This document shows, one piece after another, positions 1 to 18,730 of a stretch of DNA of 36,759 nt. The translations under genes were made by a program, and so were the position numbers. The DNA is from Sulfurimonas sp. (GTDB lineage: Bacteria; Campylobacterota; Campylobacteria; Campylobacterales; Sulfurimonadaceae). How positions within the stretch are numbered: the stretch's first letter is position 1; every line of letters starts with the position of its first letter. The notes under the pieces were generated by a model. That model ran no database searches. It had not been told where the DNA came from and saw only the letters and a program-made list of their open reading frames with translations. Location of the stretch: assembly GCA_002899765.1 (NCBI GenBank), contig PPDH01000028.1, positions 4,417-41,175 of the forward strand, in the 5' to 3' direction.

Positions 1-95
1 AACTAGTGTCAAGTACCATGGAGTATTTTATTACTATGCCCTACTTACAGTTGTTTTAGAAAGCATATCGATTAAAATTAGGTGCGAAAGCTCAG
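1..95 (-). mobile_element. Partial insertion sequence end (left edge)
   Basis: Bases 73-95 match, as reverse complement, bases 36665-36687 at the other edge (23 of 23), and the sequences diverge on both sides of the match. That is the pattern of IS terminal inverted repeats. Read inward (minus strand), an ATG at base 19 opens a frame M-V-L-D-T-S running off the window, a possible transposase start. Only about 95 bases of the element are present, so its family is not assigned. The nirS frame downstream stays open through the repeat to the window edge, but I infer that this part is IS-derived rather than NirS. Confidence 0.6.
73..95. repeat. IS terminal inverted repeat, left copy
   Basis: This is a 23-bp repeat whose outer end, read inward, is CTGAGCTTTCGCACC. 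It is identical in inverted orientation to 36665-36687. The base after the repeat on the nirS side (96 onward) differs from the base after the other copy, so the outer boundary is at base 95. No obvious target duplication links the two flanks (TTACT versus ATATA). Confidence 0.7.
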
Positions 96-682
96 TTACT
101 AAAATCTATACAGGTCCTGCATCTAAACCACACCCAGGTCAAGGTTCTTCTTGGTTTAACGAAACTCTAGGTCAACAACTTGGAGCAACAGTTAACATGA
201 ACTTAGGTCAAGTAACTATTTGGGATGACAACTTTGATGTTATTCGTCAAATTCCAATCGGCGGCGGTGGATTATTCATCGGTACATCTGAGCACACTCC
301 TTTCCTATGGGCAGATAACGTTCTTGGCGGTTCAGATGTTTGGAATCAAGTTCACTTGATTAACAAACAAACTCTTGAACTAGACAGAATTATTACTGTA
401 GGTACAACTAAAGGTACTGTTACAGATCCTGTAACTCATAAAGTTCTTTATAGCTGGGATGTTCCAACTGTGAAAGATGACAAAGGTAACGCAGTTACTC
501 CTAGAATCTTACATGCAGAGCCTGCAAATCACGGTCACTGGACTATGATTTCTGAGTGGAATGCTGGACGTATCGGTATTTATGAAGCTGAGACTGGTAA
601 ATTTGTTAAATATATCACTGGTTTAACAACTCCTACATTTACTTACTCAATTGAGCACAGACAAACTATTCCAGGTGCATAA
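96..682 (+). CDS. nirS: Cytochrome cd1 nitrite reductase (NirS), C-terminal fragment
   Basis: NirS reduces nitrite to nitric oxide in the periplasm, using heme c and heme d1. Only the C-terminal ~195 residues, the last blades of the d1 beta-propeller, are present. The 'KPHPGQG' motif just inside the junction matches the conserved PHPGRG segment of the d1 domain, and GGGLFI, ILHAEPANHGHW and the TPTFTY end are NirS-like. The N-terminal cytochrome c domain and most of the propeller are missing, because the reading frame runs into the IS end at base 95. The first ATG is at 197, but it lies mid-domain and is not a native start. The heme d1 genes directly downstream support the assignment. As shown the gene cannot make active enzyme; the 5' part may lie on the far side of the IS. 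Confidence 0.85.
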
Positions 683-690
683 TTTGCACT

Positions 691-722
691 TTTTCTCTCT
701 CTTTTGAGAGAGAAAATCTTTT
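691..722 (+). terminator. Rho-independent terminator after nirS
   Basis: This is a perfect 11-bp stem (691-701 with 706-716) with a TTTT loop. It begins nine bases after the nirS stop and is followed by a T-rich stretch. It probably separates nirS mRNA from the heme d1 operon, or lowers read-through into it. Confidence 0.75.
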
Positions 723-829
723 CAATATTATTAAGTTTTTCAACTAAAAAATACTCGCAAATTATAGCAACACTTAAAGCTTCCAAGTTATACAGCACTA
801 TACAAAACTAATAATTTTTGACAATTATA

Positions 830-855
830 AGCCAAATTTCAAGCTTAGTTTGGCT
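830..855. promoter_or_regulatory. Inverted repeat in the leader of the heme d1 operon
   Basis: AGCCAAA (830-836) and TTTGGCT (849-855) form a perfect 7-bp dyad with a 12-base spacer. The dyad sits 30 bases before the cytochrome start and just after a TTGACA (818-823). It could be an operator or an mRNA hairpin. No matching Fnr/Crp half-sites were recognised, so the role is unknown. The rest of the 683-885 gap is AT-rich with nothing else recognisable. Confidence 0.25.
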
Positions 856-885
856 AAAATAAAACTTTAACAAAGAAAGACTATT

Positions 886-1191
886 ATGAAAAAAAATATA
901 CTAATAACACTTATTTCTACACATTTACTTTTAGCAAGTGAGCCAAGCGGTAAAGAAGTTTTTGAAAAATATTGTTGGGGATGTCATCATCAGCACTCTG
1001 AAGCATTCGGTCCTTCTTTTAGCGAAATTGCTTCTAAGCGCACAAATGAAGAGATTCAAGCATACATACTAGATCCAGAATCCATGTATAAAGCTTTTGG
1101 ATACAAACGCACGGTCATGACAAAATTAAAATTAACTGATAAAGAGAGAGAAACTATCGCGAAATATATTCTTTCATACAAAGGTAAATAA
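886..1191 (+). CDS. Small periplasmic c-type cytochrome (NirC-like)
   Basis: This 101-aa protein has an N-terminal signal peptide (MKKN then a hydrophobic run to about residue 17). It has one heme c motif, CWGCH (Cys30, Cys33, His34), and a Met-containing C-terminal half that could supply the sixth ligand. Its size and place at the head of a nirJ-nirF-nirE operon fit the cytochrome c55x / NirC role of passing electrons to or maturing cytochrome cd1. That role is inferred from context; on sequence alone it is a generic class I cytochrome. The stop codon is immediately followed by the nirJ ATG. Confidence 0.75.
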   Translation: MKKNILITLISTHLLLASEPSGKEVFEKYCWGCHHQHSEAFGPSFSEIASKRTNEEIQAYILDPESMYKAFGYKRTVMTKLKLTDKERETIAKYILSYKGK

Positions 1192-2313
1192 ATGTTTAGA
1201 TTATCAAATCTCATATCTTCCGTAGTTGAGGGAAAACCGGAAAGAATTCTTAACGGTTCTATCGCAATATGTAACTTTACAAATCGTTGTAACCTCTCAT
1301 GTCTTCACTGCTACTCAAAATCAACACTTGATGAAGTCGATACACTCACAACCGAGCAAATAAAAAAAACAATTATACAGATGAAAGCAAACGGCGTTAA
1401 ATTTATCATCTTCTCAGGAGGAGAGCCGCTTACACGAAAAGACCTTTTTGAGATTGCAGATTTTTGCAAAGAAAATGGAATCATCACATATCTCTCAAGT
1501 AACGGTCTCTATTTTACAAAAGGAAATATACAACGCATAGTAGATACATTTAACTATGTCGGTGTAAGCATAGACGGTGATGAGCCGACACATGACTACT
1601 TTCGCGGACTAAAAGGTGCATTTAAAGAGACTCTCAAAGCCGTACAGCTTGCAAATGCAACAGGAGCTAAAGTCGGCATACGCTTTACAATGACAAAAGA
1701 CACTATCAACTCTTTAGAGTATATTTTTGACCTTGCAGAAAAAGAGAATATCCCAAAAATCTATATCTCTCATCTAGTCTATTCCGGACGCGGTTTGGAT
1801 AACCTCAAAATGGATCTCTCAAAAGAACAACGAAGAAAAGCCGTTGAATTTATACTCAATAAAGCATTTGAGTATTATGAAACGGGCAGAGACATAGAGA
1901 TAGTTACCGGTAATATGGAGCAGGATGCAATCTTGTTTTTAGAGAGATTTGCCAAAAAATATCCGCACCTCAAAGAGACAATGAGAGAGCGCCTTGTTGC
2001 ATGGGGCGGTAATAGCGCAGGTCGTAAACTTTTAAATATAAATAGCGAAGGCGATGTAAGACCTGACCCATTTTTTCCGTTAACTATAGGAAATATAACA
2101 GAGCAGAACTTTGGCGATATTTGGCAAAGCGGCGAACTGCTTCAGCAGCTAAGAGTTCATCCGAGAAAACAAATTAGCGGTATCTGCGGGGAATGTGAGC
2201 AGATAGATATATGTAACGGCGGCTCAAGGTCGAGAGCTTATGCAATCACGGGTGATTTATGGAGCGAAGATCCATCATGCTACTTAAGTGAACAAGAAAG
2301 AAGGAAAAACTAA
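1192..2313 (+). CDS. nirJ: Heme d1 biosynthesis radical SAM protein NirJ
   Basis: This 373-aa radical SAM/SPASM protein removes the propionate side chains during heme d1 synthesis from didecarboxysiroheme. The radical SAM cluster motif CNLSCLHC (Cys33, Cys37, Cys40) is followed by the SAM-binding 'FSGGEPL' segment near residues 73-79. A C-terminal Cys cluster (CGECEQIDIC and a later Cys in 'PSCYL') matches the SPASM auxiliary-cluster region. Length matches NirJ of other denitrifiers. It starts directly after the cytochrome stop, and its own TAA shares its last base with the nirF ATG (TAATG), indicating translational coupling. Confidence 0.9.
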   Translation: MFRLSNLISSVVEGKPERILNGSIAICNFTNRCNLSCLHCYSKSTLDEVDTLTTEQIKKTIIQMKANGVKFIIFSGGEPLTRKDLFEIADFCKENGIITYLSSNGLYFTKGNIQRIVDTFNYVGVSIDGDEPTHDYFRGLKGAFKETLKAVQLANATGAKVGIRFTMTKDTINSLEYIFDLAEKENIPKIYISHLVYSGRGLDNLKMDLSKEQRRKAVEFILNKAFEYYETGRDIEIVTGNMEQDAILFLERFAKKYPHLKETMRERLVAWGGNSAGRKLLNINSEGDVRPDPFFPLTIGNITEQNFGDIWQSGELLQQLRVHPRKQISGICGECEQIDICNGGSRSRAYAITGDLWSEDPSCYLSEQERRKN

Positions 2314-3449
2314 TGAAAATAGACAAAGTGATATTGGGAGTTTTTTTGATGGCCTCCATTTTTATAAATGCCCATGCAAAGGGAGTAAATCCTGTACTAG
2401 CAGCCCTCAAAGCTAACGAAAAAATTTTTGTTGTCGAGAGAGAGAATCAATCTCTAGCAGTTATAGAACAAGGGCTTACAAGAGGACATATAGAGGGAAT
2501 GCACGACATGAACCATGGCGTTGTAAAATTTTATGGCAAAGACGGCTATGTAATTTCTCGTGATGGATATATCATCAAATTTGACCCTGTTGAAGAAAAA
2601 ATACTCAAAGAGTATAAAACAAGTGATAGCGCGATCGGCTTTAGTGTAACCAAAAACTATATAGCTGTTGCAAACTACGCTAAAAAAAGCGTTGATATCC
2701 TTGATAGAGATTTAAATCCTATAAAATCATTTGAGACGGGTTCAAAAAATGTTGGAATTAAACAGTATAAAAATTATCTTGTATTTTCTCAAATGGACAA
2801 TGACAAAATCACAGTGCTAAAAGATAAAAATGAAGGCAAAGGAGTGCCTGATTTTGAGATATACAAAGAGTTTGAAGATGTCGGTGTTATGCCCTTTGAT
2901 GCGATGATAAAAAATAACAATTTTATTACCGGTTTTTTTAAAAGCCCATTCTTCGGTGTCGTAGATCTTGACACCATGACTTACTCAAAAATCGATATTC
3001 TGCTTGAAGATAGAAAGCCTGTACTTAAGGTTCCTCACTTTGGCTTTTGGAGCATTAGTGATGGACATGTTTTTATACCTGCTGTCGGAAACAACAAGGT
3101 TCTTGTCTACACTCCTGACTTTAAATTTGTAAAAAGCATAGAAACAGAGGGTCTTCCTGTTTTTACTGCTCTAAGTCCTGACCAAAAATATATGGCAGTC
3201 ACCTTTAGCGGTGATAAATTTCCGGTTGTTCAGATTATAGATACACAGACTCTGAAAATCATCAAAAGATTTGAATTTGACGGAAAAGTACTTCATGTAA
3301 GATGGTCAAATGTTAGACCAAATCTCTATATCTCGGTAAACGATACCAATAAAGTCGCCGTCATACATACAAAAGAGTGGTACCTTGCACGTGAAATGTA
3401 CAATATCAAAAAACCATCAGGTATATTTATTTATGAAGAGGCAAATTAA
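2313..3449 (+). CDS. nirF: Heme d1 biosynthesis protein NirF
   Basis: This 378-aa protein has a signal peptide (hydrophobic residues about 7-20, AHA cleavage region) followed by repeated beta-propeller blades, e.g. 'VVKFYGKDGYVISRDGYI' and 'KYMAVTFSGDKFPVVQIIDT'. NirF is a periplasmic propeller related to the d1 domain of NirS and is needed for the last steps of heme d1 formation. It overlaps nirJ and nirE by one base at each end (TAATG junctions), so the genes are one operon. No in-frame damage was seen. Confidence 0.88.
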   Translation: MKIDKVILGVFLMASIFINAHAKGVNPVLAALKANEKIFVVERENQSLAVIEQGLTRGHIEGMHDMNHGVVKFYGKDGYVISRDGYIIKFDPVEEKILKEYKTSDSAIGFSVTKNYIAVANYAKKSVDILDRDLNPIKSFETGSKNVGIKQYKNYLVFSQMDNDKITVLKDKNEGKGVPDFEIYKEFEDVGVMPFDAMIKNNNFITGFFKSPFFGVVDLDTMTYSKIDILLEDRKPVLKVPHFGFWSISDGHVFIPAVGNNKVLVYTPDFKFVKSIETEGLPVFTALSPDQKYMAVTFSGDKFPVVQIIDTQTLKIIKRFEFDGKVLHVRWSNVRPNLYISVNDTNKVAVIHTKEWYLAREMYNIKKPSGIFIYEEAN

Positions 3450-4189
3450 TGGGTAAGGTTTATTTAACGGGAGCAGGTCCCGGAGATATCGAGTTACTGA
3501 CTATAAAAGCACTAAAGGTAATTAAAGAGGCAGATGTAATCATTTATGACCGTTTGGCAAATCCGGACATTCTAAAAGAAGCTAAAAACGGCTGCGAATT
3601 TGTATATGTCGGAAAAGAGGACGGAAAGCATATTGTACCTCAAGATGACATCAATGAAGTCATCTACCAAAATGCTCTCAAGTATGAGAATGTAGTCCGC
3701 CTCAAATGAGGAGATCCTTTTGTATTTGGACGCGGTGGAGAAGAGGCTCTTTATCTACATGAAAGAGGTGTTAAATTTGAAGTAATTCCCGGTATCACAT
3801 CTTCGATTAGTGCCCCTGCATATGCAGGCATTCCCGTAACACACAGAGGAGTTGCCGTTAGTTTTAGAGTAGTAACAGGTCATGAGTCTCCTCATAAAAA
3901 AGAGTCTCAGATTCCTTGGGAGACGTTTAAAACAGATGATACTATCGTTTTTTTAATGGGTCTTCACAATCTTCCTAAAATCTGTAAAAAACTTATTGAA
4001 ATCGGAAAAGCAGAGAATTATCCGTGTGCCGTAATTTCCAAAGGAACAACAAAAGAGCAGATTGTTATTACGGGAACTCTTCAAGATATCGTTATAAAAG
4101 CAAAAGATTTGCCTACACCTGCCCTTATCGTTGTGGGAAAAGTTGTAGAGCTTAGAGAACAACTGCAGTGGTTTGAGGAAAATGCCTAA
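3449..4189 (+). pseudogene. nirE: Uroporphyrinogen-III C-methyltransferase (NirE/CobA-type), interrupted by TGA
   Basis: SUMT makes precorrin-2, the entry point to siroheme and heme d1. The 246-codon frame is complete except for a TGA at 3707-3709. Before it lies the N-terminal 'GKVYLTGAGPGD' motif; after it the same frame continues as GDPFVFGRGGEEA, then 'EVIPGITSS', 'PVTHRG' and 'ALIVVGKVV'. Family members read LKGGDPFVFGRGGEE here, so TGA replaces the first Gly of a near-invariant loop (GGA to TGA, one G to T change). No frameshift is needed. Its place after nirF makes heme d1 (nirE) more likely than cobalamin or siroheme. As written only 86 residues would be made; sequence error is a serious alternative. 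Confidence 0.88.
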
Positions 4190-5708
4190 ACTTCCCGATA
4201 CGTCTCAAGCGGTTTTAATCGCACCAAATATATACTGGGTCGGCATGCATTTAAAAAACGACCCCTTTCAATGCCATCCATACTTAATTATAAACGGCGA
4301 TGAGTCCATTCTCATCGATCACGGTTCCATGCTTGAGTTTAGCGAGACTGTTAGAAAGGTAAAGACTCTTATAGATATAAGCTCCATAAAATACATTATT
4401 CTTCATCATCAAGACCCTGATTTAGCAGCGGCAGTTCCAGAAATAGAAAAACTTATAAACAGAGATGATCTTCAAATAGTAACGCACTCTAGAATGTCTC
4501 TTTTAATCAAACACTATCTTGTAACTTCAAGTTATTATGAAATAGATAAACATGACTACAAACTAATAACCTCTAGCGGTTTTAAGCTTGAATTTTTATT
4601 GACTCCATACTGTCACTCTCCAGGAGCATTCGTCAGCTATGACCCTGAGTCAAAAATTCTTTTTTCAGGCGATATCTTTGGAGGGATTGAGGAATCTTGG
4701 GATTTTTATGCGGATGAGACTTACTTCCAAAAAGCGAAACAGTTTCATCAGGAGTACATGCCTAGTAAAGATATTTTTAACTATGCGCTAAGCAAGATTG
4801 AAAAACTTGACATAGAGATGATCGCTCCTCAGCATGGCTCCGTAATAGAGAAAAAGTATATTGCAAGACTCATACAAGATATGAAAAACCTCGATTGCGG
4901 ACTATACATAGAAAAAAAATATAATCAAGAACTTATCGACATCATAGAAGAGTTGAAAAAAAAAGAACAAGCATTAAAAGAACGTAACTTATTGCTCTTA
5001 GAACAATCAAAAAGAGCGGAAATTGGAGAGATGATTGGAAATATTGCACATCAATGGCGTCAACATTTAGCAATAATCAACACATCCCTTGCAATACTAA
5101 AAGAGAAAAACAAAGCAGATATGCTTAGTAAAGGCGAAATAGCAGACAAACTCCAAAAGATGGAAAAACGTATACTCTACATGTCTGAAACTATAGAAGA
5201 TTTTATGAACTACTACACTCCCGATAGAGAAAAATCTTACTTTAGCATCAAAGAAGCTGTAGAAAAAGCATTAGATATAGTTAATTTAAAATCTGAGGAC
5301 AGAGATATTCATTTAAATCTTTTACTCAGTGATACGCATAAAATCTACGGGCAGATAAATGAGTTTATCCAAGTTATTGTTTCAATACTCTCAAATATCA
5401 ATGACTTAATAGCAATCAAAAAAATAGAAGGTACCGAAATAACAATTTCACTCTATGAACAAAATAGTCTTATAACTCTTAGTATTAAAGATAATTGCGG
5501 CGGAATTGAAGAAGAAAATTTAAGTAAAATATTTGATCCATATTTTACGACAAAGCATAAATCGATGGGAACCGGACTTGGTCTGCATATAGCAAAAATG
5601 ATTATAGAAGATAACTTAAACGGCAATTTAAACGCTAAAAACATCTACTCCGGCAATGGAAAGAAAATTGGGGCAGAATTCATCATAAAGGTAAAAAATG
5701 AAAGTTGA
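4182..5708 (+). CDS. Soluble sensor histidine kinase with N-terminal ODP (MBL-fold di-iron) domain
   Basis: This 508-aa protein has no membrane segment. Residues ~1-235 are a metallo-beta-lactamase fold of the ODP/flavodiiron type. All expected metal ligands are visible: His76-x-Asp78-x-Asp80 in 'HHQDPDLA', His145 in 'CHSP', Asp164 in 'SGDIFGG', His218 in 'PQHG'. A coiled coil (~245-285) leads to HisKA with phosphoacceptor His290 in 'IAHQWRQ', and a HATPase domain with 'DNCGGI' and 'GTGLGL'. The ODP domain is known to bind O2, and relatives handle NO, so an O2/NO sensor is inferred. The ATG at 4182, preceded by GAGGAA and overlapping the nirE stop by 8 bases, is preferred to a TTG at 4173. 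The usual Pro after WRQ is His here. Confidence 0.88.
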   Translation: MPKLPDTSQAVLIAPNIYWVGMHLKNDPFQCHPYLIINGDESILIDHGSMLEFSETVRKVKTLIDISSIKYIILHHQDPDLAAAVPEIEKLINRDDLQIVTHSRMSLLIKHYLVTSSYYEIDKHDYKLITSSGFKLEFLLTPYCHSPGAFVSYDPESKILFSGDIFGGIEESWDFYADETYFQKAKQFHQEYMPSKDIFNYALSKIEKLDIEMIAPQHGSVIEKKYIARLIQDMKNLDCGLYIEKKYNQELIDIIEELKKKEQALKERNLLLLEQSKRAEIGEMIGNIAHQWRQHLAIINTSLAILKEKNKADMLSKGEIADKLQKMEKRILYMSETIEDFMNYYTPDREKSYFSIKEAVEKALDIVNLKSEDRDIHLNLLLSDTHKIYGQINEFIQVIVSILSNINDLIAIKKIEGTEITISLYEQNSLITLSIKDNCGGIEEENLSKIFDPYFTTKHKSMGTGLGLHIAKMIIEDNLNGNLNAKNIYSGNGKKIGAEFIIKVKNES

Positions 5709-6387
5709 AAAAATCAGAGATATGTCTGTTTTGCTGGCTGAAGATGAGACGGAACTTCGTGAAACTTTGACTGAGTATCTACAGATATTTTTTAACAGAG
5801 TCTATACTGCATCATGCGGAAATGAAGCTTACGATATATACAAACAGAAGAAACCTGAGATTATTTTGACAGATATTAACATGCCAAATCTTGACGGTTT
5901 TGATATGATTGCCAAAATAAGGAAAAACGATAAAGAGACAAAAATTATCGTTATGAGTGCGCACTCAGATCAAGAAAAACTTCTTCAAGCCATCAAGCTT
6001 CATCTTGAAGCATATCTTATAAAACCTATAAAAACGGATACGCTCAAGAATATTTTGCTAGAGACGGTAAACCTTATAAGAAAAACTGCCAATAGAGTTT
6101 ATGTAAGCGAGACTATATATTGGGATTATGATACAAATACACTTTGGGAAAACACTAAAGAGATAAAACTTAGAAAAATGGAAAATCTACTATTGAGACT
6201 GCTCTTTTCTGAACCAAACAACTGTTTTTCAAGTCAAGATATTTTTACATATCTTCATACCGGCAAAGAGGAAAAAGAGTTCTCATCACATGCCATAACG
6301 TCTCTTATGAAGAGAATCAGAACAAAACTGCCAGACGGAATAATCCACAATATATATGGATTAGGCTATAAAGTCACTCCGGTTTAA
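5698..6387 (+). CDS. OmpR-family response regulator
   Basis: This 229-aa protein has a receiver domain (~1-125) with the acidic pair in 'LAEDE', phosphoacceptor Asp59 in 'LTDINMPNLDGF', Ser/Thr in 'MSAHSD' and Lys in 'IKPI'. A winged-helix DNA-binding domain (~140-229) ends in 'IIHNIYGLGYKV', the typical beta-hairpin end. It overlaps the kinase gene by 11 bases and is clearly its partner. Because both follow nirE directly, regulation of nitrite/NO respiration genes is a reasonable inference, but no target site was identified. Confidence 0.93.
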   Translation: MKVEKIRDMSVLLAEDETELRETLTEYLQIFFNRVYTASCGNEAYDIYKQKKPEIILTDINMPNLDGFDMIAKIRKNDKETKIIVMSAHSDQEKLLQAIKLHLEAYLIKPIKTDTLKNILLETVNLIRKTANRVYVSETIYWDYDTNTLWENTKEIKLRKMENLLLRLLFSEPNNCFSSQDIFTYLHTGKEEKEFSSHAITSLMKRIRTKLPDGIIHNIYGLGYKVTPV

Positions 6388-9707: not shown

Positions 9708-10232
9708 TTAAAATGTGGCTTTAACCAAAAGATCAACCTGATCCCGTACACACATAAATACCATACACGGCATTTCAATACCAAAATCACTCATCAAAAT
9801 CATAGAGGCTGCATCTATGTTCAAACTGCCCTCTGTCGAAGTTATTTTAGCCTTCGCACTTAGCTCTTTTTTTTCTCCATGAAAATCAAGCGTGCCGTTA
9901 ATAATGTAGCTATTTTCTCCCTCGGTTTTTGTGACGTTTGCTATGGTATACGTTGCAAGCTTAAACGTGTCTGCCTCAACCTCTTTATACATATGCTCGT
10001 CTCTCTCGCTCTTATCGCTTGTAAAGAGAGTCATCTCAACCCAAAATTTACCCTTAATGGTACTAATATCACTGTTTTCTATAGTTATATCTGCTTTTAG
10101 ATGATTGTTTATGGGATCAATGGTTTTATCCATCAACATCTCTGTATGTGCAGCAACATAACCGCTTTTTAACTCTAAGCTAATTGCAAAGAGAGGAAGT
10201 GCTAAAAGCAACATAGTAAATATCTTTTTCAT
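9708..10232 (-). CDS. YceI-family periplasmic protein
   Basis: About 174 aa. The start is set at the ATG of MKKIF (10232), since the three residues before it add nothing to the signal peptide (hydrophobic to about residue 17). The mature part has the YceI lipocalin-like pattern: 'SGYVAAHTEMLMDKTIDP', 'IKGKFWVEMTLFTSD', 'YIINGTLDFHGEKKELSAKAKI' and a closing 'DLLVKATF'. YceI proteins bind polyprenoid-type lipids or amphiphiles in the periplasm. It ends 13 bases upstream of mgtE. Two Cys near the C-terminus could form a disulfide. Confidence 0.82.
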   Translation of the reverse strand: MKKIFTMLLLALPLFAISLELKSGYVAAHTEMLMDKTIDPINNHLKADITIENSDISTIKGKFWVEMTLFTSDKSERDEHMYKEVEADTFKLATYTIANVTKTEGENSYIINGTLDFHGEKKELSAKAKITSTEGSLNIDAASMILMSDFGIEMPCMVFMCVRDQVDLLVKATF

Positions 10233-10282
10233 GATGAACATGCCTATTTTTAAATGAATACTATTTTAACATATATTTTATT

Positions 10283-11191
10283 TTAATGCAGAACACCTGA
10301 GAGTGCGACTGCCAAACCAAGTCCGGATGCTATCCAACCGACAAATATCATCATAAAAGCGAGTTTTAGCATACTAGCTTCTTTGCTTAAAGTCGTAAAA
10401 ACCACAACATTGTAGTATGAAATGGTAAAAGGGTAGAGCATAGCAAGCGCAAAAGCCCACTCTAAATAAGAAAGCGCATAACTTCCTATAAAGAGCGCCG
10501 CTATTAAAATATGCTTCTTTGTTTTTGAGATATTGATAAAATATGCGCCAAGAAGCCCCAAAAGATGAAATATTATGATTGTAAATGTGTACTCTGACCA
10601 GATATCTATGTCCGAATGTATAGAGAGAGTTTCAAAAAGATTTGAGTCTAAAAATATCCATATCATAAGAGGTAAATACTGTAAGTAAGGGTGCGAAACC
10701 TCTTTAGAATCCGTCTCAACCCTGTAATCTCTAAGTGCAAATGCACTTAAAAGCGCAATTAGGCTAAAAAGAACTGCCATGTAAACTCTGTTATTTGCAT
10801 CATACGTAAAAAAGTAAGTGCCTATCGTATAGGCTATAGCAAGTGCAAAAAGTAGCTCTCGCTGCTGTTTTGCTTTAAAGAGATAGATACCAAGCGGAGC
10901 CATGATGCCGACGGATAGACCCAAAAGAGCAAGGGTAACTATATTGTAGTCGGGATAGGAAAAGGAGAGTGCTAACTGCAAACATAACGCAACTATTATC
11001 TTATGAATGGGTTTGCTGATTCCACCCCAAGAAAAACCCCCTAAAACCGTTCCTAAAATACCCCCTATAAACATAGGAAAAAGTGTTTGCAAATCAGAGT
11101 TGTAGTGCTCGGCAACTCCGGTTTGAACTATCAAAAGATAGTAACAAAGTTCAAACCCAAGAAGTAAAACAAGAGCCGCAGAGTGAATCAT
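10283..11191 (-). CDS. Polytopic membrane protein of unknown function (operon member 5)
   Basis: This 302-aa protein is almost entirely hydrophobic, with roughly 8-10 predicted transmembrane helices and short loops such as 'RDYRVETDSKEVSHP'. No family was recognised. The repeated small-residue helices and 'GGFSWGGISKP' loop recall transporter-like proteins, but I would not assign one. Its ATG overlaps the stop of the upstream heme-copper-like gene by 4 bases (ATGA), so it is translationally coupled to it and probably acts with it in the membrane. Confidence 0.7.
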   Translation of the reverse strand: MIHSAALVLLLGFELCYYLLIVQTGVAEHYNSDLQTLFPMFIGGILGTVLGGFSWGGISKPIHKIIVALCLQLALSFSYPDYNIVTLALLGLSVGIMAPLGIYLFKAKQQRELLFALAIAYTIGTYFFTYDANNRVYMAVLFSLIALLSAFALRDYRVETDSKEVSHPYLQYLPLMIWIFLDSNLFETLSIHSDIDIWSEYTFTIIIFHLLGLLGAYFINISKTKKHILIAALFIGSYALSYLEWAFALAMLYPFTISYYNVVVFTTLSKEASMLKLAFMMIFVGWIASGLGLAVALSGVLH

Positions 11192-12633
11192 AGGCGGCTT
11201 CTAAAGATGAGATATAAAAGAGCATAAGAGATGTCGTAAAGACCTACAAGAAGCCCGAGCATATCTATAGTCCCTAGATAAAAGAGGCAAAGAAAGATAG
11301 TTCCGGTAATCAGACGGGCAATTGAGGTAAAATAGGCAAAAAGATGCGCCTCTTTGGTTATTCCCACGAGATGCAAGATACCGACAAAGCCCATGAAACC
11401 AAAAACCAGATAGTAGTACGGAGTAAAATGAAGTCCTAAAAATTCAAAGAGTATCGGTGCGGATAAAAAGAGAATAAGCGCACCCAAACCATCCGATGCA
11501 AAGCCGTTTAAATGGTAGAGTTGAAGCAGAGAAACTCTCTTTATGTTCATCTTTTTAATTATGTAATAGACTAAGCCGGCAACCCCGATAATACCGCCAA
11601 AAAGACGAATCCACCACATTAAGACGACATCAACTTTAAAAACTCCCGCTTCATCAAAACCCGCTAACGTAAGCGAGATAAAAATAATCCCCATAACAGA
11701 GAGCCAAAAGTGCATAAAACTCTTTGGCAGCTTATAAAAATAGTTTAAAATACTAAGCGACATAAAAAATATACCCAAACCGATAGCGGCATGAGCATGA
11801 GCTACTACCAAATCATTTCTATGAAACGGCCAGCGAATCTCGGGGATAAAAAGGATATTGCCTTGAATCATGACAAACAAAAACACCCAGATTGATATAA
11901 CCAAATAAGGTGTTGATTTCAAAGTAAGTTTTGCATCTTTATACCACTTTAGTAAAAGCGGAGCGTATGCAAAAGTCAGCCACTGATAAACCCACTCTTC
12001 ATTGTATGAAAGTTCTCCTGCAAAGATACGCGTCGCAACCGAGAGAGCGTATCCTGCGAGCGGAAGAAGCCAAAAGATGTGCCAGCGTACCGTGAAATTC
12101 TCTTTTGCATGTAGTTTTATCATAAGATAAAAAAGCGGTATAAGCGTAAAGCTCATGCCCAAAGTATTATCGCCATGAGGTCCGATAAGAGTTTTTTCAA
12201 CCTGCCCGTAAGTCGGATTCATCAAAACCAGAAGCGATATAGGTGCCACAAAAAGAAGCGCTTTTGACACTTTTACCCAAAGCGGCGTTATCTCGTACTG
12301 CTTTATAGTTTTAAAGATACCGACTATGTAAAAAATACCCGAAGCCGCAAGTATAAAGTTGAGTTCATAAGCAAAATAATAAAAGGGCAAACCTCTTTGA
12401 GCCCCCAAAGAGATAGATATAACCGCCATAAACAAAAAGAGATGCCATAGCAAAAAGTAGGCTCTAAGTGGCTCTACAGCGCTGTTTAAGTCCAACTTGT
12501 CTTTTGCAAAAAGGGCAAAAGGGAGCAAAGAGAGAGCGAGCATAACCGGACCGTAGAGCATCAGCGTAATATGAAGCGAACGAGTAGTCGGTGCATTAAG
12601 CAGAGTATTGTCAAAATAGGAAAATCCCAACAT
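11188..12633 (-). CDS. Heme-copper oxidase subunit I-like membrane protein (operon member 4)
   Basis: 481 aa from the first ATG, with about twelve transmembrane helices. 'RSLHITLMLYGPVML' resembles helix II of NorB/CcoN-type subunits, where the His binds low-spin heme. 'VVAHAHAAIGLGIFF' resembles their helix X, whose HxH binds both hemes. The paired His motif expected for the CuB site is not seen, so this may be a degenerate member without oxidase or NO-reductase activity. The frame stays open 96 bases upstream and encodes another hydrophobic helix (SVIPVWAFIFLGSIAAGV), but has no ATG, GTG or TTG there. The true start is therefore uncertain and may be an ATT at 12729. Operon partners are an ABC exporter-like pair. 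Confidence 0.6.
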   Translation of the reverse strand: MLGFSYFDNTLLNAPTTRSLHITLMLYGPVMLALSLLPFALFAKDKLDLNSAVEPLRAYFLLWHLFLFMAVISISLGAQRGLPFYYFAYELNFILAASGIFYIVGIFKTIKQYEITPLWVKVSKALLFVAPISLLVLMNPTYGQVEKTLIGPHGDNTLGMSFTLIPLFYLMIKLHAKENFTVRWHIFWLLPLAGYALSVATRIFAGELSYNEEWVYQWLTFAYAPLLLKWYKDAKLTLKSTPYLVISIWVFLFVMIQGNILFIPEIRWPFHRNDLVVAHAHAAIGLGIFFMSLSILNYFYKLPKSFMHFWLSVMGIIFISLTLAGFDEAGVFKVDVVLMWWIRLFGGIIGVAGLVYYIIKKMNIKRVSLLQLYHLNGFASDGLGALILFLSAPILFEFLGLHFTPYYYLVFGFMGFVGILHLVGITKEAHLFAYFTSIARLITGTIFLCLFYLGTIDMLGLLVGLYDISYALLYLIFRSRL

Positions 12634-12724
12634 CTGAGCAGCATATATAACACCCGCTGCAATAGAACCTAAAAATATAAAAGCCCAAACTGGGATAACC
12701 GAATCTATTAATCTATAAAATTTG

Positions 12725-13336
12725 TCAATCTTTTAACCTGATTATTTGAGTTGCATAATTTTCTATCTGCATGTCATGAGAGGCGACGACTACCGTCGTA
12801 CCTTTTTGTACCGCTTGGGCTAAAAGAGAGTAAACTATCTTAGAGTTTTTCGAATCCAGACTTCCGGTAGGCTCATCAGCAAAGATAATTTTTGGCTCAT
12901 TTACAAGTGCACGTGCAAGTGCCACGCGCTGCCTCTGCCCACCTGAAATCTCATTTGGATAACGCGATGATAGCTCTAAAATACCGAGTTCTTCAAGTAT
13001 CTTGTTTATATTTTGTTTCTTATCTTCTAATGCAGCCAGAGCTATATTTTCATAAACATTGAGATAGTTTATGAGATAGTGAAACTGAAAAACAAACCCT
13101 ATCTTGCTTTGGCGAAAATAGTCTATGTTTTTAATCTCAAGAACAGACTCACCTTCTATGAAAAGTTCCCCGCTTGAGGGTTTTAAAAGAGTTGAGAGAA
13201 TGGAGAGAAGCGTTGATTTTCCACTTCCGCTTTCTCCGCTTAAAAAGAGAAATTCGCCGTTTTTTATCTCAAACGAGAGGTCAAAAAGAACCTGCTCCGC
13301 GCCGTAAAAGTGTGAAACATGTGATGCCTGTATCAT
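12725..13336 (-). CDS. ABC transporter ATPase, LolD/MacB type (operon member 3)
   Basis: About 203 aa from the ATG at 13336, which overlaps the permease stop as ATGA; an ATG two codons earlier is possible. Walker A is 'GESGSGKST', the signature is '[15 protein letters not shown]', Walker B is '[13 protein letters not shown]' and the switch His is in 'VVASHD'. The Q-loop lies in 'FVFQFHYLI'. The sequence class is that of ATPases paired with FtsX-like permeases (LolD, MacB, FtsE), and the next gene upstream is such a permease. These systems transmit force to periplasmic partners or move lipids/peptides out of the inner membrane. Confidence 0.9.
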
Positions 13337-14406
13337 GCACATCCTTGATTTATAAGAAGTATCGGGTCTGTTTTAGATGCTATCCATGCAGGAAGCAGCG
13401 AACCCAAAAGCGCCATAAAAATAGTAGAGGCTAAAACATACAAAGCGGTACTTAACGAGAGTGTGCCGTTTACATACCATTGAAGCATCTCAATATGCGG
13501 CAGCAGCGCCAAAATACCCAGACTTAAAAGAAGTGCAAAGATGTATGCTGAAATACTCATTATAAGTGTTTCAAAAAATAAATTTTTTATAATGAAAAAG
13601 CGGCTTTTCCCCAATGCACGCATAATACCAAACTCCTCTTTTCTGGAGTTTACAATCATGCTCATGACTGAAGCAATCCCCATAAGCCCCATAGCAAAAG
13701 CAAGAGTTGAGATAACAAGAGATGAGTTTTCGATGATTTTAAACTGGTTATACTCTTTGACAAAATTTTGCGTTGTCTTTACCTCTATTTCGCTACTTAA
13801 ATCAGAGATTTTTTTGGCAATACTCTCTATTTCATTTGGAGAGGAAGATGAAACAAAGAGCATGGAGGCAGAGCGGTTAAACAGCACTCCCGCATCGGAT
13901 ATATTCATAACCAAACCGCCCTCTTCAAAACCTATTTCACTGCTATAAACACCAGATATTTCAAATTTTTTATTTCCTATATTTATGTTTGAGGTAGAAA
14001 ACTGCTTTGCAAGATTTTCACCCAGTATCACCTCGCCTTCTTTAGGATAAACCCCTCTAAGAAGCTTATAATGCTCAAAATGATTGGCGGTCGTACCGTA
14101 GATTCCTGCAATCGGAATATGACCTACAGGGGAAGCTCCCACTATCATGGCGTAACTTGAGGAGACATGTTTTAGCTCATTTATCTTTTGAATCAAGCCG
14201 ATATCTACATTGGAGAAAAAAGTATCCGAGATGCCCTTTTGTGTGACGATAATATCCCCGTCACTATTAATCATCTTGGAGTACATTCCGATTACACCCT
14301 GAGATACGGAACTGATGAGAAAAATAGCCATTACAGCAATGGTAATGGATGAAAATATCAAAAGACTCTTAAGCGGATTTTTACGAAGTGCTTTTATTGC
14401 CGTCAC
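13333..14406 (-). CDS. FtsX/MacB-type ABC permease (operon member 2)
   Basis: This 357-aa protein has one N-terminal transmembrane helix (~13-35), a ~200-residue periplasmic domain of MacB_PCD type ('GDIIVTQKG', 'LLRGVYPKEGEVILGENLA'), and three C-terminal helices. The conserved FtsX segment 'SRKEEFGIMRALGKSRFFI' lies between the first two of these. The start is GTG at 14406, overlapping the stop of the upstream gene as GTGA. With the adjacent ATPase it forms a Type VII-like ABC complex; the substrate is unknown. Confidence 0.88.
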   Translation of the reverse strand: MTAIKALRKNPLKSLLIFSSITIAVMAIFLISSVSQGVIGMYSKMINSDGDIIVTQKGISDTFFSNVDIGLIQKINELKHVSSSYAMIVGASPVGHIPIAGIYGTTANHFEHYKLLRGVYPKEGEVILGENLAKQFSTSNINIGNKKFEISGVYSSEIGFEEGGLVMNISDAGVLFNRSASMLFVSSSSPNEIESIAKKISDLSSEIEVKTTQNFVKEYNQFKIIENSSLVISTLAFAMGLMGIASVMSMIVNSRKEEFGIMRALGKSRFFIIKNLFFETLIMSISAYIFALLLSLGILALLPHIEMLQWYVNGTLSLSTALYVLASTIFMALLGSLLPAWIASKTDPILLINQGCA

Positions 14407-14852
14407 TTTTCAATCGCCTCTTTTAGCTCTTGTTGCGTCGAAACATAAGATATCTCTTTGATTTTTTCTTCCTCTATATACAAAATCGTAATCTTGCCCT
14501 CTTTTGACGTAGCTGCTTCTTCAAATTTTTCATCATAGTTTATAAATATAGGATGCTTATATTTTCTAAGCTTAGGAAGTGCAAACATTTTTGTAATGAT
14601 TGTAGGCATTTTATTAATATCTGCAATAAAAACAGCATGATGACGTTGCAGATAAGTCGGCTCTTGTTCATCAAAATAGCTGTTTGCCAAAGCTCCGCTA
14701 TCTTTTTCAAACGTAGCGATAATAAGTTTTACATCTTTTGAAATTTTTATCTCTTCTCCATGAGGCGACACATATTTAAACTTCACAAGTTTAGCCAAAT
14801 CTGCATCAAGAGATGAGATTACAATAACAAATAATAACAATAGCTTATACAT
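14403..14852 (-). CDS. Exported thioredoxin-fold-like protein (operon member 1)
   Basis: This 149-aa protein has an N-terminal signal peptide (about residues 1-17, 'LLLLFVIVISSLDA'). The alternating strands in 'VKLIIATFEKDSG', 'HHAVFIADINKMP' and 'KITILYIEEEKIKEI' suggest a thioredoxin-like fold. There is no CXXC, so redox chemistry is not expected. It heads the five-gene operon, and its TGA overlaps the GTG of the permease. A periplasmic adaptor or chaperone for the ABC/heme-copper-like complex is a guess. No named family was recognised. Confidence 0.65.
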   Translation of the reverse strand: MYKLLLLFVIVISSLDADLAKLVKFKYVSPHGEEIKISKDVKLIIATFEKDSGALANSYFDEQEPTYLQRHHAVFIADINKMPTIITKMFALPKLRKYKHPIFINYDEKFEEAATSKEGKITILYIEEEKIKEISYVSTQQELKEAIEK

Positions 14853-14893: not shown

Positions 14894-15664
14894 CTAATTG
14901 ATGGTTAATACCGCTATTTCGCTTTGAGCTTTATACCGAATGTTTAAACCACAGTATCCAAGACCGTTTGTGACATATAAAACTGTTTTTTTATACATGT
15001 ACAGCCCGCTGAAGTATGGTTGAAACAACTTTACCATTAAAGAAATAGGGAAAATCTGTACGCCATGCGTATGCCCGCTTAGTTGAACATCAATGCGAAA
15101 ATCATCTACATGTGAGATATCCTTTGGCTGATGGGCTAGCAGTATTGTTGATAAATCAGGATTTAGTTTTAAGAAGAGTTCTTTTATGGGTCGTTTAATT
15201 CCGCGCACAAAACTGTACCTGTCGCTTAAGCCCACTAGCTGCAGAGTAGAACCTTTTACATTTATGCAAACTATTTTATTATCTAAGCAGACAACCCCGT
15301 TTTTACACATTATCTCATTAAGGTCTTTTAGCCCGTAAACTATATCATGATTGCCGCTCACATAGTATGAAGGTGCCTCCAAATTTTTAAAGTGCTCTAA
15401 ATGCTCTTTTACTTTCAAAGCCGAAGTTTGTATTATATCCCCGCTAAAGAGGACAATATCGGGTTTTATTTCATTGATTTTTTCAACAAGATTTTTAAGA
15501 TAGTCCAGTTTTACCCGTTTTGTAAGATGCAAGTCCGAGAGCTGAACAATACGAAGTCCGTTTAACGAACTGCAAAAAGAACTGCTTTTTACTCTTATTT
15601 CTTTAAAAGGGAGATACTTCCAACCAATCTGCAGGGGCATTATTTTAAACTCTTTTTTTTTCAT
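14894..15664 (-). CDS. YkuE-type metallophosphoesterase
   Basis: This 256-aa calcineurin-like phosphoesterase carries all the metal-site motifs: 'QLSDLHLT', 'FSGDIIQ', 'SGNHDI', 'LLAHQP' and 'LSGHTHGVQ'. The short basic N-terminus lacks a clear signal peptide. This subfamily includes UDP-2,3-diacylglucosamine and other membrane-associated phosphohydrolases; the substrate here is not determined. It is transcribed divergently from the SYLF-domain gene. Confidence 0.85.
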   Translation of the reverse strand: MKKKEFKIMPLQIGWKYLPFKEIRVKSSSFCSSLNGLRIVQLSDLHLTKRVKLDYLKNLVEKINEIKPDIVLFSGDIIQTSALKVKEHLEHFKNLEAPSYYVSGNHDIVYGLKDLNEIMCKNGVVCLDNKIVCINVKGSTLQLVGLSDRYSFVRGIKRPIKELFLKLNPDLSTILLAHQPKDISHVDDFRIDVQLSGHTHGVQIFPISLMVKLFQPYFSGLYMYKKTVLYVTNGLGYCGLNIRYKAQSEIAVLTIN

Positions 15665-16507: not shown

Positions 16508-18730
16508 TTGAATTTAATTATCGTCGAATCACCTGCTAAAGCCAAGACCATTAAAAACTTTCTCGGCAAAGATTATGAGGTTATCGCTTCAAAAGGTCAT
16601 ATACGGGACCTTCCAAAATCCCGTTTTGGAATCAGTGTGGATGAAGACAACCATCTTGTTCCCGCTTATAGTGTTGCAAAAGAGAACGCCGCAACAGTCA
16701 AAGAGATAAATGCTTTGGCAAAAAAGAGTGATACTATATATATCGCGACCGATGAGGACCGCGAAGGTGAAGCCATCGGATGGCATATAGCTCATGCTAT
16801 CAAAAGAGACCCCGAAACACTCCCTAGAATAGTATTTCATGAGATAACAAAAACTGCTATAAACAACGCTTTACAAAACGCCCGCAAAATAGATATGGAC
16901 ATGGTAAACGCGCAACAAGCACGCCGTATACTTGACCGTGTCGTGGGCTACAAACTCTCCCCTTTGCTTAGTTAAAAAATCCAAAAAGGACTCTCGGCAG
17001 GTCGTGTTCAATCCTCAACACTCAAACTTGTAGTAGACAGCGAGAGAGAGATAAAAGCGTTTATACCTGAGGAGTACTGGAGCATAGATACTCTTTTTAA
17101 AAAAGATATAGAAGCGACTCTTATACTCCATAAACAAGAAAAACTCTCAAAACTATCCATCACAAATAAAAAGCAGGCTGATGCTATCGTAGAGAGTGTA
17201 AAAGCCGACTCGTTTGTTATATCAAAGATTGAGACAAAAGAGAGAAAAAGTGCTACGCCTCCGCCGTTTATGACCTCAACCCTTCAACAGACCGCATCAA
17301 GCAAACTCGGATTTACCCCGAAAAAAACTATGATGGTCGCTCAAGCACTTTATGAAGGCGTTAAAACTCCAAGCGGAACAAGCGGTGTTATTACCTATAT
17401 GAGAACAGACTCACTAAACCTTGCACATGAAGCGCTTAGTGCTGTTCGCGGCGTAATCGAGAGCAGATTCGGCAAAAAATATCTCCCTGACGAACCTAAG
17501 GTTTATACCAAAAAAGCAAAAGGAGCACAAGAAGCACACGAAGCAATCCGCCCTACTATGCTTCAATTTACTCCCGAAGTCGCAGCATCATTTCTCAAAC
17601 CCGATGAGATTAAACTCTACCGCCTCATATATGAAAGATTCATGGCATGTCAAATGAATGATGCCGTATTTGAACAACAAAGCATCATCTTCAGCGGCAA
17701 AGAGAATGAGTACAGAGCAAGCGGAAGAAAGCTGATTTTTGACGGTTTTTACGCACTTACAGGAGCCGAAGACAAAGACAAACTTCTTCCTTCTCTTAAA
17801 GAGGGCGAAGGTGCCGAGATACAAAAAATAAAACAAGAGCAGCATTTTACAGAACCGCCTGCGCGCTACTCAGAAGCAGCACTTATCAAAAAACTTGAGA
17901 GCGAAGGAATCGGACGTCCTTCAACATACGCTCCGACTATTGCGACTCTTAGCAACAGAACTTATGTAACTATCGAGAAAAAACAGATTATTCCTACAGA
18001 GATGGCGTTTACCGTTACAGAGATTTTGGAGAAGAATTTTGCAAACATCGTTAATGTATCTTTTACCGCAAACATGGAAGAGAAGCTAGATGAAGTTGCA
18101 GAGGGGCAAAATGACTGGCAGAAACTTTTAAGTGACTTTTACTTCCCGTTTTTAGAACAGGTTGAAGAGGGCAAAGAGAAGATAATATCACTCAAAGTTG
18201 CAAAACCTCTTGGTCATGCCTGCCCTAAATGCGGGGAAGAGCTGCTTCTTCGTTCAGGCAGATTTGGAGAGTTTATTGCATGCAGCGGCTTTCCAAAGTG
18301 TAAATATACCGAGCAGGTTGAGGGCGACAAAGAGGATAAAGAGCAATCAAGTTCCGAATCAACTCATGAGATATGTGATAAATGCGGCAAAGAGATGGTT
18401 CTAAAAAGCGGCAGAAACGGTCAATTTCTAGCATGCAGCGGATACCCCGAGTGCAAAAATACAAAAAGCATCAATATAGAAGAGAAAACTAGCGAGACTC
18501 CATGTCCTGAATGCGGCGGCAAAATAAGCCTCAAAAATTCAAGACGCGGTCCGTTTTGGGGATGTGAAAACTACCCTAAATGTAAATTTATATCCAAATT
18601 TGAACCCACAACCATCAAATGAAAAGAAAAAGGATGTGACGGCGCTTTAGCTAGAAGAACTTACAGAGGCAAAGAGGTTTACGAGTGCATTAAGTGTAAA
18701 ACCAGAACTCCGATTGAAGATATAGAGTAA
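16508..18730 (+). pseudogene. topA: DNA topoisomerase I (TopA), interrupted by two in-frame stops
   Basis: TopA relaxes negative supercoils. The single frame of 741 codons begins at TTG (16508). It shows the Toprim domain ('LIIVESPAKAKTI', 'DEDREGEAIGWHIA'), the 'GLSAGRVQS' motif, the catalytic Tyr297 in 'ITYMRTDS', and C-terminal four-Cys zinc fingers. TAA at codon 156 (16973-16975) falls between 'YKLSPLLS' and 'KIQKGLSAGRVQS'. TGA at codon 705 (18620-18622) sits where the first Cys of the fourth finger is expected (x-KEKGC ... CIKC). Both are single substitutions without frameshift. Because topA is normally essential or nearly so, sequence error or read-through is more likely than true loss. 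Confidence 0.92.

Follow-up and report, generated by a model that had tools for sequence, protein, structure and literature searches.

The LolCDE transporter uses ATP to lift lipoproteins out of the inner membrane. A YceI-family lipocalin and a membrane cytochrome b561 (BcnA-LcoA) form a known pair in lipid-peroxyl detoxification, and isoprenoids or ubiquinone-8 have been reported inside YceI barrels; that report leaves the route by which lipids and quinones reach YceI lipocalins, and the way they are re-reduced, for further study (PMC9113575). Here we describe a gene module of Campylobacterota in which a YceI gene accompanies an FtsX/LolD-type transporter and a protein resembling subunit I of heme-copper oxidases (HCO-like), and whose probable task is the handling and reduction of membrane lipids, not O2 respiration. 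We found no account of such a module in the openly licensed PMC literature.

The locus comes from Sulfurimonas sp. contig PPDH01000028.1 (assembly GCA_002899765.1, positions 4,417 to 41,175); the window is this whole stretch of 36,759 nt. Five coupled open reading frames lie within 10283-14852 and, together with a YceI gene and a gene for a YaeI-like metallophosphoesterase, make up a module of seven genes (Table 1). A first-pass annotation had described the five as an operon with stop/start-overlap junctions, and had proposed that their products form one complex in fixed ratio. Their coordinates and overlap sequences proved correct, all five lie on the minus strand and the overlaps recur in relatives, but the unit does not end there, as the YceI and metallophosphoesterase genes belong to it too. 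The junctions in the window are GTGA (149-aa gene/FtsX), ATGA inside a 10-base overlap (FtsX/LolD), ATTGA (LolD/HCO) and ATGA (HCO/MFS). In relatives FtsX and LolD overlap at 71 of 77 loci, LolD and HCO at 77 of 79, and HCO and MFS at 67 of 71; these counts are upper bounds, since starts were placed mechanically at the first start codon. At the start of the window are genes that we take, by reading, to be NirS-, NirJ- and NirF-like. The names GltP, MgtE, YSC84, Sel1, histidine kinase and response regulator given to neighbours are likewise presumed, by reading.

Table 1. Genes of the module in window coordinates
Product	Position	Strand	Basis
YceI-family lipocalin, signal-like N-terminal stretch (by reading)	9708..10241	minus	Pfam YceI 53.1 bits (cut-off 23.7)
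Membrane protein of 302 aa with predicted MFS fold and 11 predicted helices ("membrane protein" of the first-pass annotation)	10283..11191	minus	AF2 model and fold match
Predicted CuB-less heme-copper superfamily (HCO-like) protein, ~513 aa if the start is ATT 12727-12729	11188..12729	minus	Homology, fold, ligands
ABC ATPase of LolD/MacB type, 205 aa, with Walker A and a signature motif (by reading)	12725..13342	minus	Pfam ABC_tran E 2.7e-35
FtsX/MacB-type permease, 357 aa, GTG start	13333..14406	minus	Pfam FtsX 6.2e-16, MacB_PCD 1.7e-15
Cysteine-free 149-aa protein, taken by reading to be exported; loosely attached member	14403..14852	minus	Family alignment
YaeI/LpxG-like metallophosphoesterase	14894..15664	minus	Pfam Metallophos; NCBIfam LpxG and YaeI below cut-off

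Is this arrangement peculiar to one contig? Conservation of gene order had been set beforehand as a test, and the order recurs in relatives: the FtsX-LolD-HCO-MFS-YceI set stays together in Campylobacterota. At the 54 loci flanked on each side by 4.5 kb or more (well-flanked loci), FtsX and MFS genes are present in all 54 and LolD and YceI in 52 each; of the two loci missing each of the latter, tblastn recovers LolD in both and YceI in one. The HCO-like and MFS proteins are found in an identical set of 60 of 397 genomes (60, from 62, after weak partial HCO matches in G314 and G383 were dropped). In an 80-genome test set made up of 40 of the 60 carriers and 40 non-carriers, the latter mostly Sulfurimonas, the FtsX gene was found in 40/40 carriers and 0/40 non-carriers, with E-value cuts picked after the score gaps had been seen. 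One relative has a module-less site with identical flanks. The module is a block that is present in some Campylobacterota and absent from others. In a genome scan, the best 80 of 105 relatives bear titles of Campylobacterota or vaguer groups, one being "Proteobacteria bacterium"; the cultured species Sulfurospirillum cavolei and S. diekertiae are among the carriers. The peptide patterns were derived from Campylobacterota and other phyla lay outside the scan, so we do not claim that the module is restricted to this phylum. A search of plasmids returned no match, and one of viral contigs no relative.

The HCO-like protein had been called heme-copper-like in the first-pass annotation, with a structural match to heme-copper subunits named as a test. 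The match is strong: the predicted model (pLDDT 78) superposes on cbb3 oxidase and cNOR with Z 25-26 over 376-391 residues, and the protein is accordingly predicted to have the COX1/subunit I fold of the heme-copper oxidoreductase superfamily in about residues 1-400, followed by extra C-terminal helices. The annotated length of 481 aa belongs to a real reading frame, but the N terminus was too short: in close relatives an ATG takes the place of the window's ATT, which overlaps the LolD stop, and a start there gives the length in Table 1. The window protein itself has no Pfam match; in its family, Pfam COX1 is matched at E up to 1 by 74 of 79 members (best 8.4e-10), and a CcoN profile at 1.4e-4. 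A quick tree of the family with CcoN, NorB and aa3 sequences places it as one group with support of 100 on a very long branch, and leaves its position relative to the other three without resolution.

The family alignment of 79 rows omits loci L012, L013, L015 and L017 (apparent duplicates of L022, L032, L082 and L084) and also L019, L029, L030, L061, L072, L076 and L086 (partial, masked, or start unclear). The presumed heme-ligand residues H52, H310 and H312 are invariant in all 79. To judge by the residues, H52 (TM II) and H312 (TM X), both aligned to CcoN, would bind a low-spin heme, and H310, aligned to the first His of the CcoN HxH, a high-spin heme. H184, D186 and H302 are likewise invariant. 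As the first-pass annotation had noticed, the CuB His pair is missing: there is no HH within residues 217-262 in any of the 79 homologs, and the two positions aligned to the pair have His in 23/79 and 5/79, never both as a pair. On this alignment the protein appears to lack the CuB/FeB site (three His including an HH pair) of O2/NO-reducing members of the superfamily.

The transporter call of the first-pass annotation also held. FtsX, MacB_PCD and ABC_tran all score above their Pfam cut-offs, and the domain content (FtsX, a periplasmic domain of MacB type and an ATPase of FtsE/LolD type) identifies a predicted MacB/LolCDE-type pair. The ATPase hits FtsE and LolD in NCBIfam without reaching either cut-off, and the LolCDE equivalog scores are not reached (LolD 181.5 bits, cut-off 307.75; lolCE 52.2, cut-off 362.45). 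For the 302-aa membrane protein, the AF2 model (pLDDT 92.6) matches MFS transporters with VIA Z 22-24 over ~290 residues, pointing to an MFS fold; the window protein has no Pfam family above cut-off, and a Pfam TgpA_N match, below cut-off and in one of 40 members, was dropped in favour of this fold. The label "Trx-like" for the 149-aa protein is unproven: it has no cysteine, none is conserved across 32 aligned sequences (hence no CxxC), and it gives no PDB profile match and no convincing Pfam match. Its family has matches in 116 of 397 genomes and so is wider than the module.

The metallophosphoesterase is replaced in part of the carriers. In the 80-genome set it was found at E under 1e-80 in 27/40 carriers and 0/40 non-carriers. 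A hydrolase related to NAPE-hydrolysing phospholipase D (NAPE-PLD; profile E 1.5e-60 to 4qn9), counted in carriers only, is present in 12/40; both occur in 0/40 and neither in 1/40 (G002). At the 54 well-flanked loci the phosphoesterase is present in 32, the NAPE-PLD-like hydrolase in 16, both in none and neither in 6. Two carriers have the hydrolase gene and the HCO gene on separate contigs: G029, with the phosphoesterase, and G329, with the NAPE-PLD-like hydrolase. Two unrelated metal-dependent hydrolases replace one another within the module, and we infer that they share a lipid substrate.

What does the module do? We tentatively favour a reading in which it acts at the inner membrane and in the periplasm, where it extracts, carries and redox-treats a membrane lipid (an isoprenoid quinone, or a phospholipid that has been damaged or modified). 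The cytosolic phosphodiesterase, YaeI-like or NAPE-PLD-like, would prepare the lipid and the MFS protein would move it; FtsX-LolD would spend ATP on lifting it from the inner membrane, as LolCDE does with lipoproteins, and the YceI lipocalin would be its periplasmic acceptor. The HCO-like protein would be a b-type cytochrome lacking a centre for O2/NO reduction; it would hand quinol-pool electrons to the lipid bound in YceI, or accept electrons from that lipid, a role like that proposed for cytochrome b561 in BcnA-LcoA. It is conceivable, though rather doubtful, that we are dealing with a lipid machine of a new type, whose CuB-less superfamily member, recruited from respiration, became a quinol-linked cytochrome for the reduction (repair) of lipids or quinones brought on YceI by a MacB-type pump; a respiratory-type redox subunit would then be wired to a mechanotransmission ABC transporter.

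Other readings start from the HCO-like protein itself. It might be a redox biosynthetic enzyme (such as a heme peroxidase, a hydroxylase or a desaturase, with a lipid or secondary metabolite as substrate) whose product is exported by the MFS, ABC and YceI proteins. Retention of the presumed high-spin heme residue H310 without a CuB pair, the invariance of H184, D186 and H302, and a set that includes transporters and a hydrolase would all suit such an enzyme; no synthase, ligase or transferase was recognized among those conserved families that were annotated, and we think this reading unlikely. That the protein does reduce O2 or NO after all, as an atypical reductase with its second metal held by the invariant H184 and D186, seems very improbable. 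D186 does align with the first CuB ligand of CcoN, in a region where alignment and model are weak; against this, residues 217-262 hold no His pair in any of the 79 aligned homologs, and residues 237 and 238 vary.

The first-pass interpretation, which had the heme-copper-like protein, the missing CuB pair and the FtsX/LolD transporter right but missed YceI and the phosphoesterase, offered a heme or quinol redox module, respiratory assembly or NO/O2 sensing. Rather than the last two, the YceI gene, the phosphoesterase and its exchange for a NAPE-PLD-like hydrolase would suggest lipid handling. A system for assembly or maturation of a respiratory enzyme, either cbb3 oxidase or one of denitrification, would fit the presumed NirS-, NirJ- and NirF-like genes and the COX1-family matches in 40/40 tested carriers; such matches also occur, however, in 37/40 non-carriers, a lipocalin and two interchangeable hydrolases would be unexpected, and NosZ, which passes its cut-off in 15 of the 40 carriers and in as many of the 40 non-carriers, gave no denitrification link. 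We regard assembly as improbable, and equally so a heme-based NO/O2 (or redox) sensor signalling to the FtsX-LolD pump. A CuB-less heme could bind NO or O2, and Arcobacter-type loci have a response regulator and what we take, by reading, to be a histidine kinase after the module, but this putative kinase family is nearby in just 23 of 85 loci and the lack of a NosZ association counts here too. Three carriers (G002, G263, G414) have a single COX1-family match each, CcoN-like, which also speaks against a sensor and indicates that NOR is not required for the module; a NOR link was set aside on the evidence of these three carriers.

The module may give a point of entry for studying by what route membrane lipids or quinones come to YceI lipocalins and in what way they are re-reduced, and nature's exchange of one hydrolase for the other hints at the substrate. 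The HCO-like family adds a distinct heme-copper lineage in which the abilities of the fold without O2/NO reduction can be tested, the presumed heme ligands being kept.

How, then, does the module compare with known systems? With CcoN and NorB the HCO-like protein shares the predicted fold, the TM II His and the TM X HxH, and with CcoN also an E/Q-G-x12-H-x2-D-x4-H-x-H stretch in CcoN spacing; it differs in having no HH pair, an Asp where the first CuB ligand aligns and the additional C-terminal helices, and the conserved module genes include no cytochrome c subunit. As in LolCDE and MacB, an FtsX and MacB_PCD permease is paired with a LolD-like ATPase, but here there is a single permease gene, MacA and LolA were not recognized in the cluster, and the pair is linked to the HCO-like protein, the MFS protein and YceI. 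The Sulfurovum- and Sulfuricurvum-type versions of the module carry the MBL-fold relative of NAPE-PLD, which is absent from the window. A further parallel is with BcnA-LcoA, in which a YceI gene is linked to that of a membrane protein with several helices and an expected b-type heme (PMC9113575); here YceI lies in the cluster in 52 of 54 loci, and the HCO-like protein may bind heme, to judge by its ligand residues. The cytochrome-like protein of the module has, by prediction, a heme-copper (COX1) rather than a b561 fold, ABC, MFS and hydrolase genes are added, and no aldehyde reductase was recognized in the conserved set. By analogy, the module may work like the BcnA-LcoA pair without being a member of that system.

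The first-pass annotation described a five-gene unit, and all five ORFs are present in the window as it had them, but related loci show that the unit is larger and that its genes keep company as a module. Related loci were drawn from whole genomes and from the GTDB contig collection, and the ORFs of 85 of them were clustered; 84 of the 85 have the ORF for the heme-copper-like protein (HCO). The usual order is FtsX-LolD-HCO, then a 302-residue membrane protein (MFS), then YceI. The gene for a 149-residue protein lies ahead of FtsX, behind YceI, or immediately behind HCO, and a hydrolase gene is found inside the cluster or adjoining it. In Sulfurovum-type loci (e.g. L064, L068, L083) MFS-YceI precede FtsX. 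Conservation of gene order had been proposed as a check: lineages differ in order, but the same genes remain together. By ORF clustering, FtsX and MFS are present in all 54 of the loci whose flanks extend 4.5 kb or more in both directions, LolD and YceI in 52 each, and the 149-residue protein in 41. Their hydrolase is a metallophosphoesterase (32 loci) or an MBL hydrolase (16), never both; six loci have neither. The tblastn algorithm recovers LolD in both loci where clustering missed it and YceI in one of two, and gave no match for YceI in locus L082.

What are the partner proteins? The 302-residue protein has no family match above cut-off, and its model (pLDDT 92.6) has an MFS fold (Z 22-24). 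The FtsX protein carries FtsX and MacB_PCD domains, YceI scores above its Pfam cut-off, and the MBL hydrolases match NAPE-PLD (4qn9) at 1.5e-60. The 149-residue protein has no cysteine, no PDB profile match and no convincing Pfam match.

An HCO profile scan of 397 Campylobacterota genomes gave 62 matches, of which two weak partial ones were left out; the other 60 are all at E < 1e-100. The MFS profile also matches 60 of the 397, the identical set. Counted among these are G416, whose HCO gene is cut by a contig end, G088, whose MFS gene is split across two frames, and G404, whose HCO-like gene is a decaying copy (Table) and whose MFS gene has no in-frame stops. Eighty chosen genomes were then compared: 40 of the 60 carriers of the HCO gene and 40 non-carriers, the latter mostly from the window's genus. 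FtsX (E <= 1e-20) is found in 40/40 carriers versus 0/40 non-carriers, and the cluster-type phosphoesterase (E < 1e-80; next best 8.3e-66, in longer proteins) in 27/40 versus 0/40. A NAPE-PLD-like protein, searched for in the carriers alone (E < 1e-100; next best 1.5e-60), occurs in 12 of the 40, with zero overlap with the phosphoesterase carriers; one carrier (G002) has neither at the cuts used. In G029 and G329 the hydrolase and HCO genes are on different contigs. The 149-residue family is wider than the module (116 of 397 genomes). At a module-less site in G354, a member of the window's genus, the flanks (presumably Sel1-, GltP-, MgtE- and YSC84-like, names by reading) and the 149-residue gene are found with identities of 51-83%. 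None of the other six genes of the module is matched there, and HCO, MFS, FtsX and the cluster-type phosphoesterase are absent from the whole G354 genome at the cuts used. The module was either lost from this site or never gained.

The window's HCO protein alone has no Pfam match; 74 of 79 aligned family members match COX1 (E up to 1), and the family profile finds R. capsulatus CcoN at E 1.4e-4. The structural match that the first-pass annotation called for was obtained: an AF2 model built with nine sequences (pLDDT 78, residues 175-183 below 50; pTM 0.75) matches cbb3 and cNOR with Z 25-26 and rmsd 4-5 over 376-391 residues, the helices past about residue 400 being outside the aligned range. 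H52 aligns with the heme ligand of TM II, H310/H312 align with the TM X HxH, and the stretch E/Q-G-x12-H-x2-D-x4-H-x-H has the CcoN spacing. These three histidines and H184, D186, H302 and H452 are invariant in 79/79 members. The CuB His pair is indeed missing, as had been noted: none of the 79 has HH within residues 217-262. In a region where both alignment and model are of low confidence, hhalign matches D186 to the first CuB His and 237/238 to the pair; His stands at 237 in 23 of the 79 members and at 238 in five, never as HH.

The ATT at the HCO start (Table) overlaps the LolD stop as ATTGA, and the first predicted HCO helix is formed by the residues directly after it. The same base gives an earlier LolD stop (205 residues versus a cluster median of 209). 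This ATT may be a genuine start or an error; in-frame stops also occur elsewhere in the assembly, namely in topA (Table; none in five related genomes), in nosZ (one TAG) and, upstream of the window, in a COX1-family gene (one TAA). Those stops reflect either decay or sequence errors.

Table. Coordinates of features in the window and in two other genomes
Location	Feature	Remark
Window 1-3449	Cytochrome cd1 nitrite reductase-like gene end, small cytochrome c-like ORF, radical SAM protein, NirF-like protein	Presumed, by reading
Window 4173-5708	N-terminal metallo-beta-lactamase-like (possibly di-iron) domain, C-terminal histidine kinase	Presumed, by reading
Window 5698-6387	Response regulator, next after the preceding	Presumed, by reading
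Window 12727-12729	ATT	HCO gene of close relatives starts here with ATG
Window 16973-16975	In-frame TAA in topA	Frame runs on to 18622
G404:C1:1208652-1210187	HCO-like gene	Eight in-frame stops
G354:C1:2073500-2081500 (L131)	Module-less site	

Two respiratory links were considered and rejected: NosZ shows no association with the module among the 80 compared genomes, and NOR is not needed for its presence. In Arcobacter-type loci (e.g. L056, L060, L066, L069, L071, L073, L081) two genes that by reading encode a response regulator and, putatively, a histidine kinase lie directly behind the module, downstream of the phosphoesterase.

LolCDE-kind pumps lift lipidated substrates out of the inner membrane, and FtsX-LolD would be a pump of this kind, acting on a lipidated substrate; the hydrolase step could be supplied by either of two unrelated enzymes. 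PMC9113575 reports YceI lipocalins with bound isoprenoids such as ubiquinone-8, and states that in many bacteria the YceI gene adjoins or is fused to cytochrome b561, which is proposed to reduce YceI-bound quinone and so to quench lipid peroxyl radicals. The HCO-like protein may fill the b561 role beside YceI. Given this substitution, the candidate pump and the two-enzyme hydrolase slot, we tentatively read the module as a lipid or isoprenoid extraction and redox system, at a likelihood somewhat below even. The make-up of the module and the co-occurrence of its genes are observed; that it contains heme, how electrons flow, what it acts on and in which direction are inferred. Compared with the YceI-cytochrome b561 pair, a heme-copper-fold protein here takes the place of b561, and the module adds a pump and a hydrolase.
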